Origin: a virus
IMG/VR virus record: IMGVR_UViG_3300020213_000023
Span: 1-64,000 of that record
Length of the DNA stretch: 64,000 nucleotides
Direction: 5' to 3' (one strand)
The position numbers and the translations under genes were made by a program. The notes beneath the pieces were generated by a model. That model was not told the origin of the DNA, made no database searches, and saw only the letters and a program-made list of their open reading frames with translations. Below, in pieces: positions 30,092-40,088 of this stretch. Numbering within the stretch: the first letter of the stretch is position 1; every line of letters begins with the position of its first letter.

Positions 30092-30691
30092 ATGGAAGAA
30101 ACGCGCATTGGTGATTTTTCTCAGCCTCTCGTCCCGAAGCCAGTGACGAAAGCGGCTACAGGGGACACGAAGGTCCGTATGGAGGCAGCCGAGCAGAGCC
30201 TCGAGTCCGAAGCGAGAGATGCGGAAGCCGCACTCAAGCCGCTGAAGTCATACGAGGAGAAGCTGAAGGAGGCGGGAGTCACCAAGGACGAAGCCGCAGA
30301 CATCATCGACTCCGTGTTGATGAAGGGTTTCTGGTCAGAGACGATCAAGATTACGGCGCGCATTTCGATCAAGCTTCGAACACGCAGCGCACGCGACGTT
30401 CGACGCATCCAGGACTACCTGGAAGTTCACCGGCCCGTCTACGACACGCACTACACCGAGATCATGGGACGGATGACGCTCGCGGCGTCGCTCGAACAGC
30501 TGGGCACTGACAAGCTTCCTTTCCCCGGGAAAGATGCCAAGAACGAGGACTACGAAAAGGCGTTCCAAGAACGCGGCAACTACATTGAAGGTCTCGCTGA
30601 CCCAATCCTCCGTTTGCTGTTCCTGAAGCTGTGGGCTTTCGACGAGAAGATTCGCGCTGTTCTCGCGGAAGGTACGATCGAAAATTTCTAG
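30092..30691 (+). CDS. Tail assembly chaperone, short form (gpG-like)
   Basis: A 199-residue acidic helical protein directly upstream of the tape measure gene, the usual place of tail assembly chaperones. It ends EGTIENF at a TAG that is preceded by the slippery heptamer A AAT TTC. In other phages such proteins coat the tape measure and recruit tail tube subunits. The role is inferred from position and the frameshift, not from strong sequence similarity. GGAG precedes the ATG. Confidence 0.7.
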   Translation: MEETRIGDFSQPLVPKPVTKAATGDTKVRMEAAEQSLESEARDAEAALKPLKSYEEKLKEAGVTKDEAADIIDSVLMKGFWSETIKITARISIKLRTRSARDVRRIQDYLEVHRPVYDTHYTEIMGRMTLAASLEQLGTDKLPFPGKDAKNEDYEKAFQERGNYIEGLADPILRLLFLKLWAFDEKIRAVLAEGTIENF

Positions 30692-31104
30692 GCAGCCCAG
30701 GGGGGAATGCACGGGCTGTCCTATTTGCGCGCGGCCTCACGCTTCCGCCTCTGGGCTCCGTAGAAGATCGCGTTCTTCGGGAAACGCTTTTTCGAGAGCG
30801 GCGGGAGCGCGTGGCGCAGGTAGAAGCGTTCGCCAAAATAGCGGCCCGCGTGTTCACCGTGGACCCTATGAAGGCGTTCGGATCGATTATCGCGGAATAC
30901 GAAGCTGAGGTATTCCAGGAGACTTACGACGCAGAGGTTTTGAGGGGGAAAATCGTTGCCATTCGAGAGGCGCAGAAACGGCTTCGCACCAAGCGTCTTC
31001 ACGATGAAAAGATGATCGATCGTCTCGAGCGAATGGGCGAGTACTACGACCACAAACTGGGACCCGACCTCAAGAAAGCACCGACGACGAGACCCGTAAA
31101 GTAG
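30092..31104 (+). CDS. Tail assembly chaperone, -1 frameshift fusion (gpGT-like)
   Basis: A -1 slip at 30682-30688 replaces the stop of the short form and continues in the overlapping frame from CTA at 30688 to a TAG at 31104. This adds 138 residues (LGSPGGNARAVLFARGL and onward), for about 337 in total. The added part is basic and helical with a coiled-coil region. In lambda-like systems the long form joins the tape measure to the tube, and the ratio of the two forms is essential. Confidence 0.68.
30682..30720 (+). promoter_or_regulatory. Programmed -1 frameshift site with hairpin
   Basis: AAATTTC (30682-30688) is read as A AAT TTC in the zero frame, a perfect X XXY YYZ slippery heptamer. 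The TAG stop follows at once. GGCAGCCC (30691-30698) then pairs with GGGCTGTC (30713-30720), an 8-bp stem with one G-T pair and a 14-base loop, which could stimulate slipping. The -1 frame is open for 138 codons downstream. Confidence 0.8.
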
Positions 31105-31140: not shown

Positions 31141-34100
31141 ATGGCGGACCAAGGAGGCGGCGAAACCATAAAGCAGATGCTCTCTGGGTTTAACCAGATG
31201 CAGATGCAGCTTGGTATTCTGCCCGTGCAATCGGCACAGACGCCTATGGGCGTCGGGTTTCAGCCGCCTCCTCCGCCGCCTCAAATCCCGCATCCATCGC
31301 AAGCAGCGATGATGGCGATGGCGCAGCAGCAGGCGATGACGCAGCAGACCATGCAGGCTGCGCAGATGGCGCGTTACATTCCGCCCCCTTCTTCGCCAAT
31401 CGGTGGGGGTGGTGGATACCAGCCGATGAACCCGTACCTCGCGGGCGCGATGAACGGCAACATGGGCGGGATGCCGAATCCGATGATGATGACGGCGCCT
31501 GCGTTTGGCAATTATCGTTCGGGAGGCAATTTTAGCCGTCCACACATTGGACAAGGCCACATCCCACCGATTTTCAATCCGTTTGCGCCGTCAGTACAGC
31601 AATCGCACTTCATGACTCCCGCGATGCAGAACCTGCAAATCATGCAAGGTGTGCAATCGCGCAGCACCGGCATGGCGGCAGGCGCGGTGGACGCAGGGTT
31701 CCGCTTCGGCGGCGCGGCTCTCGGCGCGTTGGCAGGCTCCGCGTTCGGTCCCTTGGGGACTCTCGCAGGCGGCTTCCTTGGTCACCAGATTGGCGGGTTC
31801 CTGGGTGGCATGGCGACGGGGCCGGGCGCCATGGACACCGCGCGAGGTCGTCAGCTCCAGAACATGTCGGCACCCTGGATGGTGTCGGGAGGCATCCTCA
31901 ATCCGTTCACCGGGCAAGGCATGGATCGCGAGGCAGCTCGCTCGACAGCGACAGGCCTGCGCCACATGGCGACACGTGACCACGATTTCCGACGTACAGG
32001 GTTCAACACCGAAGACGTCATGCGCATCACACAGCTGTCCAGCGACCAGGGGCTGCTGACTGCTTCACGGTCGCCCGAAGATGTCCTGCGTAAAGTGAAA
32101 GAGGTCTCGAAAGCGGTCAAGGTCTTGATGCAGATCACGGGCGACCCGGATGTGCGAAACGCAATCGCGTCAATCGGTCAAATGAAGGACCTAGGCTTCG
32201 TCGGCACTGCCGGTCAGGCGGGCGCTGTTGCCAATCGCGCGATGTTCGCGCGTATGGCTGGCGTGTCGCAAGGCGCGATGAACGATGTCTACGGCATGCC
32301 AGGCGCGATGATGGCACAGCAGTCTGGCATGGCAGGGTCCACGGGGTACATGGCGGGCATGGCAGGCGGCGCGGCAGCGAACATCGCGCGCTCGTCCGGC
32401 GCTCTTGATCCATTGCAGATGGCGCGGGCCGGTGGTGTTCAGGGTCTTGGGCAAATCAACGCGATGGCGCAATTGAGTGCGCAGAACCAAGACATCTACA
32501 TGGCGGCGGCCCTCAAGAAGGGCAAGGGGGGCATCGACATCGACATCGACGCATACCGCAAGGCCCAGACGATGTCGATCTCGGAGGTGTCCAAGCTCGC
32601 GGCTGAAAACATGCGAGAGCTGCAAAAGGAAGGTCATTTCGAGCTGGCCACACGCAAGCAGGAGTTCAAAGACAAGCTTGCACAGCAAATGACTCCGTTC
32701 GAGATGCAGATGAACGTGGTGAATCAAGCCCGCGGTCTCCAGAAGTCGGTTCCAGGCATGAACCTTGGCGCCGCGTTGCGCGTCACTGCACAGTCCAATG
32801 CGGTCGGCGCAGGGATGAGCGATGATCAAGCAGAGGCGGCGGGGCGGTCTATGGAGTTGCAGCTCACGAGCCGTGAGTATTGGGACGGCCAACTCCAGCA
32901 AAGAAAAGTTCAACGTCGCGAAGTTGCGCGTTCTGAAAAAGCCAAATGGGACCAGTTCCGCACGCCTGGCTTGGCGACGCGGATGGGCCGCGGCATCGAA
33001 GGAGCTTTCAACGTCGTGAGCGACACTCTTTCTTCGCCGTTCCGAAGCCTGTCCAATCGGATGGACCGCGCAGCAGAGGATGAGGCTGCGATGCATCGCG
33101 GCGAAAGAATCGTGCGACACGGCGCTTCGACGTTGATTGATGACGCTTCCGATCGAGCAATGGCTCGAGGCGCGCTGAAAGATATGCGTGGACGCGGGTC
33201 TTCGCGCGAGATGTCGTTTAACGACGGTCTAGGCGAGCGACTTCTCAATAACGTTGGAAGCTTCTTTGGCCTGTCTAGTACGAGCAGCATGGCTCTAGGC
33301 GCGCTGAAAGATATGCGTGGACGCGGGTCTTCGCGCGAGATGTCGTTTAACGACGGACTTCTCAATAACGTTGGAAGCTTCTTTGGCCTGTCTAGTACGA
33401 GCAGCATGGCTCTAGGCGCGCTGAAAGATATACATGAACGCGGGTCTTCGCGCGAGATGTCGTTTAACGACGGTCTAGGCGAGCGACTTCTCAATAACGT
33501 TGGAAGCTTCTTTGGCCTGTCTAGTACGAGCAGCTCGGTTCGTATTAACGAACTCGCACACGCGTCACGGCAACACATGTTCGGAAATTCGATCGGGGAA
33601 TCCTTCGGGGACCCGCAAGAATCTCTACGTCGCGTCATGGACGTCGTAGGTCAAGCGAAGGCCATGGACCGAGGTCAAACACTAACAGGCACCAAACGCA
33701 GTGACGTGATGGATAAGCTCCGCAAGTCCAGCGGAGTAAACATGGAGAAGGTAGTTTTCAACGCAGCTAGTCGTATCCACTCACTCAGTGGAACTGCAGG
33801 TACGTTTGATTCGGCTTCTGCCATGGGGCTTTCGGAACAAAAGGCCTCGTGGATCGAATCCCTCAAGAAGGGAGGAAAAACGACCGAAGAGGCTGAAAAG
33901 TTCTACGAAGCACACAAGGACGATCTTCACGCGCTGGGCGCGAAAGAACTCATGACGTGGGGCGGAAAAGACGTCAAGGAACGTCTCGGCAGGTCCAAGG
34001 ATATTCAAACTGCCATGGGCGGTATTAGGTCCAGCACAAGCACGTCAGCTGCGGACAAGGTAATCAACGAGAAGCTCGCCGGTGCCGGACTTGGTGCCCT

Positions 34101-36075: not shown

Positions 36076-36549
36076 GTGGGATTTTCATTCATTGAGGCGG
36101 ACCTTGTTTGTTGGACAGGCACCCTCAGCACGTTCGAACAGCGCCTGATGCGTCCTCTGCCGATGTACGCACTCGAGCAGCTGCGTGTTCGATTCCTTCA
36201 CGTCGTCACAACATCAAAGGAACAAGCCAAAGTCGCACGTTCCGTGCTTCAGATGGCGTTCGATACCGAGATTGGCGCCACGCTCGCCAAGCTCATCACG
36301 GTAGCGCCCGATGCTCTTACGTCACGTGTGTGTGAGCGCCGTCGATTCCTCGAGATTGATGCAGATATGCAGGCGTTCAAGTTCCTCTGGGCTCCCGCCC
36401 TAGACGCAGTACGTGAGCAGGAGTTCCTGCCTCTCAAGTACGTCGAGCTTCTCGAGCTGCACTACGAAGCGGCGTATCCGCGTTACCGTGTTAGCGCAAT
36501 CGCGGCGCTCCTCTGTATGGCCGCTTCGTACCTTGTCGAGGACGCATGA
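36076..36549 (+). CDS. Tail-operon hypothetical protein
   Basis: A 157-residue helical protein. GTAGGAGG precedes a GTG start, and the stop overlaps the next ATG. No family is recognised. It is likely to be a minor baseplate or tail assembly protein because of its location. Confidence 0.55.
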   Translation: MGFSFIEADLVCWTGTLSTFEQRLMRPLPMYALEQLRVRFLHVVTTSKEQAKVARSVLQMAFDTEIGATLAKLITVAPDALTSRVCERRRFLEIDADMQAFKFLWAPALDAVREQEFLPLKYVELLELHYEAAYPRYRVSAIAALLCMAASYLVEDA

Positions 36550-39500
36550 GCAAACCGCAGAGTGGCGCCTTGTTTTCAACGAACGACGCCCATTCGGGCG
36601 CCTTCATCGTTTACATCAATGGACTCGAGGTCCCATGCAAGAGCGTGTCGCACCGTTACGGGGTCTGGCAAACACCTGAGATGGTGCTCGAAATGGTCGC
36701 AGACCCTGTGCTCACGCGTATCGGAGCAGAAGACCGTGTCCAGGTCCAAGTCTTCTATCTCGACGACACCAAGGTCGATCCGTCAGTTTCTCCTCAGTTC
36801 CGTGTGTTCGGCGAAGGTGAAATCACTGGATGGGGATACCAGAACACGCCGAGTGGTCGTTCGATCATGCTCACCTGTGTCAATCAGGTGGCCATCTTCA
36901 CGCAGTTGTTCGTCCAGTTCATGACGAACCTCGACGACATGGTAGCGCACGCGTCTGATCCGAGCGCTGGCGCAAACGCGATTGCGGTTGCATCCAGCAA
37001 CATCGTGTATCCGTACGCGTTGTTCAGCGAGGGTATCGTTCCAGGCGAAGCAACAGGGCAGATCAAACGGCCGTTTGATCTACTCTACAACGTCATTAGA
37101 AACATGATTGGTTCCCATGTTTCATCAACCACTCGTGCAACTCCAGTTGCCAATTTCTTTGCGCGTTGGTCACGTCTGACGAATTTCCACAACCGATTTG
37201 CAGCGATGCCCTTCTTTGACGAAGTCATCGATAACAACATCTTCCCTGTGCTCAAGGCGCTGCAGAACACCGCAGCTGTCGACGTGTTGTGCAAGAGCTT
37301 GCTTCCCCAAGTCCAGAACTCCGGATCGTTCTGGGACATGCTGCAGCTGGTCTATCAGACGGTATTCATGGAGATCACCATGATCCCTACGATGCCGTTG
37401 GTCACCGTCGACCTTCGCTCTGGACACATCCTCCAGACAAATTTCGATAAACACAAATTGACGATGGTGGACGGGACGTACGTCGCTGCGGCAGCGCCGG
37501 ATCCCCTCAAACCTCACCGCATCCCTAACTACTTTGCCAAACCGCAAATGCTGTTCGGCATTCCGCCGACGTGCAACGTCATCTTTCCGTCGCAGCTCAA
37601 GATGTTTGCTTACGACGAGAACTTCGCCACACAACCCACACGGCTCTACTTCAACGACGAAACCGTCAGTAAGATCCTCAAGATCCAACAAGGCGGATAC
37701 GGCGAGACGGTCATGAACTCTCTCGCCACCGCGTATCCGCCAGAAGCGGACGCAGCGAATCAAGCACGGCTTCGGTTTCCTGCGTTCAACGGGAAAAGCT
37801 TCCTTCTCTTCCCTGAGGAATTCTTCAAAGGCCCGGTCATGGACCGGCGCAACATCCCACCATGGCTGTTCTTCCTCAAACAGAATGAAGTCCTCAACGA
37901 CCCGTCGTCTAGTGACGGAACAACGACAACACCGCCTCCGCCGGCTCAAACAGGCGCAGCGACGGTCACGTCCGCACCAATCACGTCCGCAACGGCAATG
38001 CTTACGGATACGCGGGTAGGGACTATCGGGAAGGATGGTAAGCGTGTTTTTTCCACGAACGTGGAAAGCCTGCGAACCGACGTGACCCGACTGACAAGGG
38101 GCAACACAATCCCGGTCGACTTTGCGTTGGCCTGGATCCAGCACGAATCTGACGGAACGCTCAAAACTACGACTAGCAGAAACCAACGCGGTTATTTCCA
38201 AGTGACAGGGCCGCACGAAAGGGGTGACGGAACCATCGTCAAGTTTGCGGACAGCGAAGCGGCTGCCATTGGGCTTACGGAGGCCCACACGGGAAGTGGA
38301 CAAGATTCGCCGTTACTCGGTGAAGAGCATCCGCTGCTTTCAACTAACCACGAGGAATCGCTCCAGGCGGGCGTTGCTTTGATCCTCTACTATCGCAAAC
38401 AAGCCGATACCCTCGCCAACACAAATTCGCTCGATTGGTCCGAAGGCGACATGTGGCGACTCACCAAGCTATTTCACGGGGGCGCGGGATATGCGGCGTC
38501 TTTCATTGAAAAAGCGGTCGCAGCAAACGCGGTTGACAGCTGGGCCAACGCGTTCACCGCAGTAACTCATACGCTCGAGGCCCCCTTCAAAAAGGTGGTC
38601 GATACTGCAACCGGTGTTGGTAGCGTGGTGCCGACCGCAAGCGGCACGACCCTGGATGCGAACAGTGAAGCTATCCGTCAAGCGGCTGCGACACCGCCCC
38701 CTGCCACGCCCGCCGATGTAACTGCTCCTTCGGATGGAACGACGTCGGCAACAGTGGCCGCCGGAACAGCTAGCGAGGCGGACCTATTCGAGCAGGCACG
38801 TGAAGGCCAGCAGACCGTCTACCAGCTCTACGCCAAATACGAGTTTTTCCGGGAACGTTACTCTCGGCGAACAGGGTCCGTCGTCCTTGCCTTCAATCCT
38901 TACGTTGTGCCTGGCTTCCCTGCAGCCATCTTCGACCGCCGGGACACGCGCGTCGACGTGTTCTGTTACGTCACCACGGTGCAACAAAGGATGTCACACC
39001 GAGGTGGAAAGGAGACAACACTCTCTTTTGTATACGGACGTACCATTCAAGAGATGTTCGACTTGATGCGTCTCGAATTTTCCCAAGGGGGCGCAGCCGC
39101 TGGCACAGGACCACGCGAGCCAATCCGAGACATCCGAAAGGTAGTGCAGAGCTTCTCGTCGTCCGAGACACTCTATCAACGTCTTTTCTACGGAAATCAG
39201 ATTTTGTTCGGTAAGGACGCGTCGTTTGATTACCGCAAGGTCATTGGATACCAGCCGGACGTTCCTTCTGATATGCCGGATCGAATCGTCATCGAAGGGC
39301 CAGACGAGGCTTCGCAAGATTCGGCTGAGCGTGCCAAAGAAGTTATTGCGGCTCTCGAAGCCAGCAAGCAAGCGGCGGAATTGCGCGTCGCCGTATACAC
39401 GCAAGCACAGCGAGATGCGCAAGCAGCACTAAGCGTTTACGAGGCTCAAGCTGGAACGGCGCTCGAGACCGCACGGGACGCTGCACAAAAACAGTTCGAG

Positions 39501-40088
39501 ATTTCCACGGTGAACCTCAACGTGGTCAAGGCCGAACTCGCATCACTCAACCAGTCGATTAACTATCAAATGTCCGTGTTGGTTGCCTCGAACGAGGTGA
39601 ACGCGAAGACCCACGTCATTCATAACCTCGCAGGGGACCGGGAAATCATTCCGTTGCCGTCTGCGGAGGGCGCGTTTCAAGATTACGACGTCGCCATGCG
39701 CTACAACTGGCGCCCGATCTGCACCCTCGATGAATACATCATGTTCCATGACTCCGTGGGAGAAGGTCCGGTCCCTGCGAGTAACCATCCCCGATCGGTT
39801 GGCGCGATGTACTATGATCGTATCCGTCGGATGACGCCCGTACCCGCGGACTTCAAGTTCCCTGCAGGGGCCGACGGTCTCAACGCTGCCGTGGTTGCCG
39901 CTACACCAGAACAAATCGCAGCAGGGGAGGCGCCGGCACACGCGACGGCCATCCCAGGCCTCAAGAGTGGCACCGGCCCTCATGGAACCAACGCACCGGG
40001 TGACTTCCCTCAAGTAAGAGACGACTGGGATAAAATCCTCTTGGCGTACAGAAATAATGTTTACCACGTGAAAGTACCGCGAACATGA
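36546..40088 (+). CDS. Baseplate hub with embedded transglycosylase-like domain
   Basis: A 1180-residue protein. Residues 1-420 form a beta-rich hub-like part (FIVYINGLEVPCKSVSHRYG at the start). After a Thr/Pro linker (about 455-475), VDFALAWIQHESDGTLKTTT, then QRGYFQVTG, resembles the catalytic start of SLT-type lytic transglycosylases, with Glu534 as the candidate acid. A second Pro/Thr/Ala linker (about 715-740) precedes another structural part (FNPYVVPGFPAAIFDRRDTR), as in gp27-type hubs. It probably pierces the cell wall at injection. The C-terminal part has a coiled coil near 930-1000. Confidence 0.6.
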   Translation: MSKPQSGALFSTNDAHSGAFIVYINGLEVPCKSVSHRYGVWQTPEMVLEMVADPVLTRIGAEDRVQVQVFYLDDTKVDPSVSPQFRVFGEGEITGWGYQNTPSGRSIMLTCVNQVAIFTQLFVQFMTNLDDMVAHASDPSAGANAIAVASSNIVYPYALFSEGIVPGEATGQIKRPFDLLYNVIRNMIGSHVSSTTRATPVANFFARWSRLTNFHNRFAAMPFFDEVIDNNIFPVLKALQNTAAVDVLCKSLLPQVQNSGSFWDMLQLVYQTVFMEITMIPTMPLVTVDLRSGHILQTNFDKHKLTMVDGTYVAAAAPDPLKPHRIPNYFAKPQMLFGIPPTCNVIFPSQLKMFAYDENFATQPTRLYFNDETVSKILKIQQGGYGETVMNSLATAYPPEADAANQARLRFPAFNGKSFLLFPEEFFKGPVMDRRNIPPWLFFLKQNEVLNDPSSSDGTTTTPPPPAQTGAATVTSAPITSATAMLTDTRVGTIGKDGKRVFSTNVESLRTDVTRLTRGNTIPVDFALAWIQHESDGTLKTTTSRNQRGYFQVTGPHERGDGTIVKFADSEAAAIGLTEAHTGSGQDSPLLGEEHPLLSTNHEESLQAGVALILYYRKQADTLANTNSLDWSEGDMWRLTKLFHGGAGYAASFIEKAVAANAVDSWANAFTAVTHTLEAPFKKVVDTATGVGSVVPTASGTTLDANSEAIRQAAATPPPATPADVTAPSDGTTSATVAAGTASEADLFEQAREGQQTVYQLYAKYEFFRERYSRRTGSVVLAFNPYVVPGFPAAIFDRRDTRVDVFCYVTTVQQRMSHRGGKETTLSFVYGRTIQEMFDLMRLEFSQGGAAAGTGPREPIRDIRKVVQSFSSSETLYQRLFYGNQILFGKDASFDYRKVIGYQPDVPSDMPDRIVIEGPDEASQDSAERAKEVIAALEASKQAAELRVAVYTQAQRDAQAALSVYEAQAGTALETARDAAQKQFEISTVNLNVVKAELASLNQSINYQMSVLVASNEVNAKTHVIHNLAGDREIIPLPSAEGAFQDYDVAMRYNWRPICTLDEYIMFHDSVGEGPVPASNHPRSVGAMYYDRIRRMTPVPADFKFPAGADGLNAAVVAATPEQIAAGEAPAHATAIPGLKSGTGPHGTNAPGDFPQVRDDWDKILLAYRNNVYHVKVPRT

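Follow-up and report, generated by a model that had tools for sequence, protein, structure and literature searches.

The −1 frameshift in tail assembly chaperone genes is an established trick of tailed phages (Xu, Hendrix and Duda 2004, as cited in PMC5009743). In phage lambda, a short chaperone (gpG) and its −1 extended form (gpGT) are encoded directly before the tape measure gene, and an in-phase X XXY YYZ heptamer, G GGA AAG, lies near the end of the first frame, 15 nt from its stop codon. In P2 the heptamer is T TTT TTG and the distance to the stop is 18 nt. Bacillus phage G carries an annotated frameshifted chaperone pair, gp181/gp182, which also precedes a tape measure gene, and its heptamer, A AAA AAC, touches the stop codon TAG. 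Here we analyse a 64,000-nt stretch of DNA (the window), part of a 95,045-bp IMG/VR virus record, in which a gene pair has the same layout: a short chaperone-like frame, a −1 extension and, directly behind them, a tape-measure-like gene. The pair belongs to the known gpG/gpGT class and is a new member of it. Its heptamer is A AAT TTC, the distance to the stop is 0 nt, and searches detected no resemblance in sequence to known chaperone families. From the sequence comparisons described below, we propose that a programmed −1 frameshift at A AAT TTC in the gpG-like chaperone gene yields a gpGT-like fusion, a reading to which we assign a probability of about 95%.

Anatomy of the locus

Direct reading places GAA AAT TTC TAG at 30680-30691, in frame with the ATG at 30092 (Table 1). 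A AAT TTC is thus an in-phase X XXY YYZ heptamer that abuts the zero-frame stop, and the −1 frame stays open for 138 codons past the slip until its own stop at 31102-31104. In the window and its relatives alike, the two overlapping frames lie directly upstream of a large ORF, which in the window is rich in Gly and Ala. The original prediction, made from the DNA letters of the window, had described this −1 frame of 138 codons followed by a tape measure gene, and both the reading and the 1252-aa ORF bear it out, with the qualification that the ORF is judged tape-measure-like by its size, position and composition and has no family match in the profile libraries. Inside this ORF, at 33160-33534, a 129-nt unit (43 aa) occurs three times in tandem with copies about 89% alike; these repeats are a recent change and may affect tail length. 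Another in-frame A AAT TTC, at 37439-37445, lies within a 1180-aa ORF (36546-40088) with no stop behind it, and is probably there by chance.

Table 1. Features of the chaperone locus in the window, and the hairpin of the Arash clade (L numbers denote relatives; L020 is Salmonella phage Arash)
Feature	Position	Strand	Basis
gpG-like tail assembly chaperone ORF, zero frame, 199 aa	30092..30691	+	Open from ATG; kept in relatives; AlphaFold match
Weak Shine-Dalgarno-like GGAAGG	30668..30673	+	Lies where five relatives have GAGGAGGG; −6.9 kcal/mol
Slippery heptamer A AAT TTC	30682..30688	+	Direct reading; identical in 12/12 other distinct relatives examined
−1 extension (T-like domain), 138 aa, first codon CTA (Leu)	30688..31104	+	Open −1 frame; conservation
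Zero-frame stop TAG, directly 3' of heptamer	30689..30691	+	TAG in window clade
Hairpin of the original prediction, 10 bp with one bulge	30689..30723	+	Probably not functional
Tape-measure-like protein, 1252 aa	31141..34899	+	Large ORF directly after chaperone pair; same order in Arash and D69
Arash-clade hairpin	L036 8191-8229; equivalent place in L020, L035, L037, L040, L039		

Conservation of the heptamer and stop codon

As a query, gpG alone retrieved no relatives, nor did a profile of the extension searched against bacterial genomes or a DNA search among named phages. The −1 extension as a query did match contigs, and the matches begin at the very first residue past the slip. There are five distinct close lineages (L002; L003, the same as L004; L005, the same as L006; L012; and L016, nearly the same as L017), in which gpG is 47-53% and the extension 57-63% identical to those of the window. 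A second route was the window's baseplate protein, which matched Salmonella phage Arash, three Vibrio phages and Bacillus phage G. The distant set consists of Arash, Vibrio phage D69 and five distinct Arash-like contigs; L034, almost identical to Arash, was left out of the counts, and Vibrio phages D181 and D148 were left out of the junction comparison. In both Arash and D69, two small genes precede a large one, with an order and relative frames that match those of the window. The small genes are annotated as separate in Arash (gp2/gp3; L020, OQ632216.1, 1622-2538) and in D69 (0002/0003; L021, OZ195729.1, 1536-2395), although their proteins are homologous to those of the window. Profile comparison of gpG between the window clade and the Arash clade supports homology (97.9%, E 5e-13) at an identity of about 25%, and the extensions of the two clades align as profiles from just past the slip (E 8e-5).

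The motif AAATTTC-TA[AG] stands at the same junction in 12 of the 12 other distinct relatives, and in 13 of 13 when the window is included. The heptamer ends the first frame in both clades, and the site has persisted even as protein identity dropped to about 25%. In Arash and D69, as in the five Arash-like contigs, A AAT TTC is followed at once by TAA; the window clade uses TAG at this point, and TGA occurs in none. No relative has retained both frames without the heptamer, a combination that the original prediction had named as a refutation, and its central claim of a −1 frameshift at a stop-adjacent A AAT TTC in a tail chaperone gene is supported by the comparison. Moreover, AAT is a minor Asn codon in the long ORF following the chaperone genes of the five close relatives (7/29, 1/31 in L003, 3/34, 1/26 in L012 and 10/37), and despite this status it occupies the heptamer in all six distinct window-clade sequences. 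The longest invariant run around the site in these six is TCGAAAATTTCTAGG (15 nt). The fixation of a minor codon inside this run indicates that the heptamer did not arise by chance alone. A pattern scan for Glu-Asn-Phe-TAR in all its synonymous spellings, followed by the conserved −1 peptide, returned eight contigs, which are the known close set, with the slippery spelling only. As for the heptamer itself, the R_RR.U_UU.Y class, A_AA.U_UU.C included, was a shifty exception in E. coli assays (PMC4066793); hence A AAT TTC differs from the heptamers of lambda, P2 and phage G and yet is not a strange choice. In the papers searched, AAAUUUC is not mentioned in connection with frameshifting.

Proposed mechanism and role of the stop codon

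In the proposed mechanism, most ribosomes on the gpG-like gene would terminate at the UAG at 30689, and a minority would shift back by one base on the A AAU UUC heptamer, with tRNA-Asn re-pairing from AAU to AAA and tRNA-Phe from UUC to UUU. Slipped ribosomes would decode CUA in place of UAG and then 138 codons, and the product would be a 337-aa gpGT-like fusion joined at ...TIENF-LGSPGG.... The predicted junction peptides are AVLAEGTIENFLGSPGGNAR in the window and ANFLSQPWAK in Arash. The short and long forms would assist the tape measure protein, the product of the next gene, as tail assembly chaperones.

What is most unusual about the site is that the stop codon follows the heptamer without a gap and is UAA or UAG in every member. 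With UGA the Leu residue would be retained as CTG, which is a commoner codon than CTA in all genomes tested except D69, and yet UGA is never used, which suggests that stop identity is under selection. A tentative variant of the proposed mechanism is that the invariant A AAU UUC UAR is the working unit, in which UAG or UAA waits in the A site, the wait involving release factor 1 lets the tRNAs slip, and competition by this factor sets the ratio of the two chaperones. The zero spacing between heptamer and stop in all members, which recurs in phage G with another heptamer (A AAA AAC TAG), fits such a unit. However, slow A-site codons are less important for −1 than for +1 shifting (PMC5009743), and since the members share ancestry, the identity of the stop may simply be inherited.

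Where the frame changes

A different reading takes the −1 ORF as a separate gene with its own start, reached by re-initiation or internal initiation and without a frameshift. The Arash and D69 records annotate it in this way, each from an internal ATG, and in Arash and several relatives an ATG preceded by AAAGG does occur 28 nt into the extension. Yet the members compared have no −1-frame start codon in common: L039 has no ATG at this place, and the window has no start codon within the first 100 nt past the slip. Internal initiation was rejected on this ground. In addition, residues upstream of the internal ATGs are conserved in the −1 frame, so that the annotation in Arash and D69 leaves conserved residues untranslated. 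In the window clade, substitutions within the first 30 codons past the slip run at 0.20, 0.09 and 0.46 at −1-frame positions 1, 2 and 3, and the extension is thus conserved as a protein from the slip onward. The frame itself is closed just ahead of the site in D69, L037 and L040, where a −1-frame stop lies one codon upstream of the heptamer (the frame opens 3 nt before it), which means that the −1 frame is entered at the heptamer only. A separate gene would also leave the invariant heptamer unexplained, and we regard it as highly improbable. By comparison with the frameshifted gene proposed for the window, Arash gp2/gp3 and D69 0002/0003 each look like one frameshifted chaperone gene that is split in the records. 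Still less credible is transcriptional slippage, in which mRNAs of altered length would join the frames: the site is A/T-rich within a GC-rich genome, but the run amounts to no more than AAAATTT (AAATTT in several members), runs known to slip in transcription are far longer, and the conserved unit is the in-phase X XXY YYZ.

Fold and identity of the chaperone

The family and profile libraries give no confident name for gpG, and its profile has no match among PDB sequences. Its AlphaFold model has a mean pLDDT of 79, with a core mostly above 88, and among solved structures it is closest to the HK97 tail assembly chaperone 2ob9, at Z 6.6, a moderate score where Z 8 is often wanted; the next entries, at 4.6 and 2.3, score clearly lower. 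The model thus has a chaperone-like fold, at a Z below 8. Among predicted viral structures, the matches include the chaperone of Rhodococcus phage Finch and, as one of the best, phage G gp181, itself annotated as frameshifted, although no gpG sequence similarity to phage G tested as significant. Position, frameshift and fold agree, and together they argue for the chaperone identity even though the scores are moderate; the gpG/gpGT assignment of the original prediction gains from the resemblance of the model to a solved chaperone. The virion proteome table of Arash contains neither Gp002 nor Gp003 and gives Gp004 the second highest spectrum count (PMC10585845). That the two are missing is a weak hint, consistent with chaperones that leave the finished tail.

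Candidate stimulators

An 8-bp hairpin starting in the stop codon had been put forward as part of the signal in the window, at a near-zero spacer. The hairpin exists and is larger than described, with UAGGCAGCCC paired with GGGCUG-(U)-CCUA (−16.8 kcal/mol), but when the sequence was shuffled 200 times with dinucleotides preserved, 57 of the shuffles matched or exceeded its stability (z −0.57), pair counts in the window clade give it no covariation support, and relatives do not share it. Moreover, given the size of the ribosome, a stem that starts in the stop codon would already be open when the heptamer is decoded. With folding, shuffles and pair counts against it, the hairpin was set aside as a stimulator, and the signal probably does not include the near-zero spacer. 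No conserved stable structure was found in the window within a few nt past the heptamer.

The probable stimulator in the relatives of the window is an internal Shine-Dalgarno-like element, which is a likelier candidate than the window hairpin. In the five close relatives, GAGGAGGG lies 9 nt upstream of the heptamer, with a duplex energy of −12.2 kcal/mol when paired with the anti-Shine-Dalgarno tail. This distance falls within the 9-14 nt range over which an upstream Shine-Dalgarno element stimulates −1 shifting (PMC5009743), and is reminiscent of E. coli dnaX, although the dnaX shift occurs on A AAA AAG and yields a shorter product, and the window's own element is weak. The GAGGAGGG element also codes for a conserved Glu-Glu-Gly; the sequences suggest that selection may act on it as RNA. 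As candidate stimulators the window itself has a weak Shine-Dalgarno-like element and a non-significant downstream structure. The five close relatives (L002, L003, L005, L012 and L016) also share two promoter-like sequences, CCTTGTACCAA just upstream of gpG and CTA[CT]AATA before the tape-measure-like gene, neither of which is kept in the window.

An upstream Shine-Dalgarno element cannot be the universal stimulator, since the Arash clade has none at the right distance. Arash-like phages differ from the window clade in having a strong hairpin 20 nt downstream of the heptamer, with z from −3.5 to −5.2 (L020, L036, L039) and covariation, five pairs being changed on both sides; in D69 such a hairpin is not clearly present. 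At 20 nt, the hairpin lies farther from the heptamer than a classical stimulator usually does; it also covers the internal ATG, and so may serve to prevent internal initiation instead of promoting the shift.

Implications

The frameshift trick is already known in tailed phages; here the exact slip-plus-stop sequence is unchanged across very distant relatives. By these comparisons, a chaperone gene that profile libraries do not recognise would now have a well-supported function, and the Arash and D69 records would each hold one frameshifted gene split in two. If the stop codon is indeed part of the signal, the chaperone ratio would depend on release factor 1, and each of the two clades would have equipped the same core with a helper of its own, an upstream Shine-Dalgarno element in one and a distal hairpin in the other. 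An invariant heptamer-UAR core combined with differing apparent stimulators thus offers a natural experiment on what a bacterial −1 signal needs.
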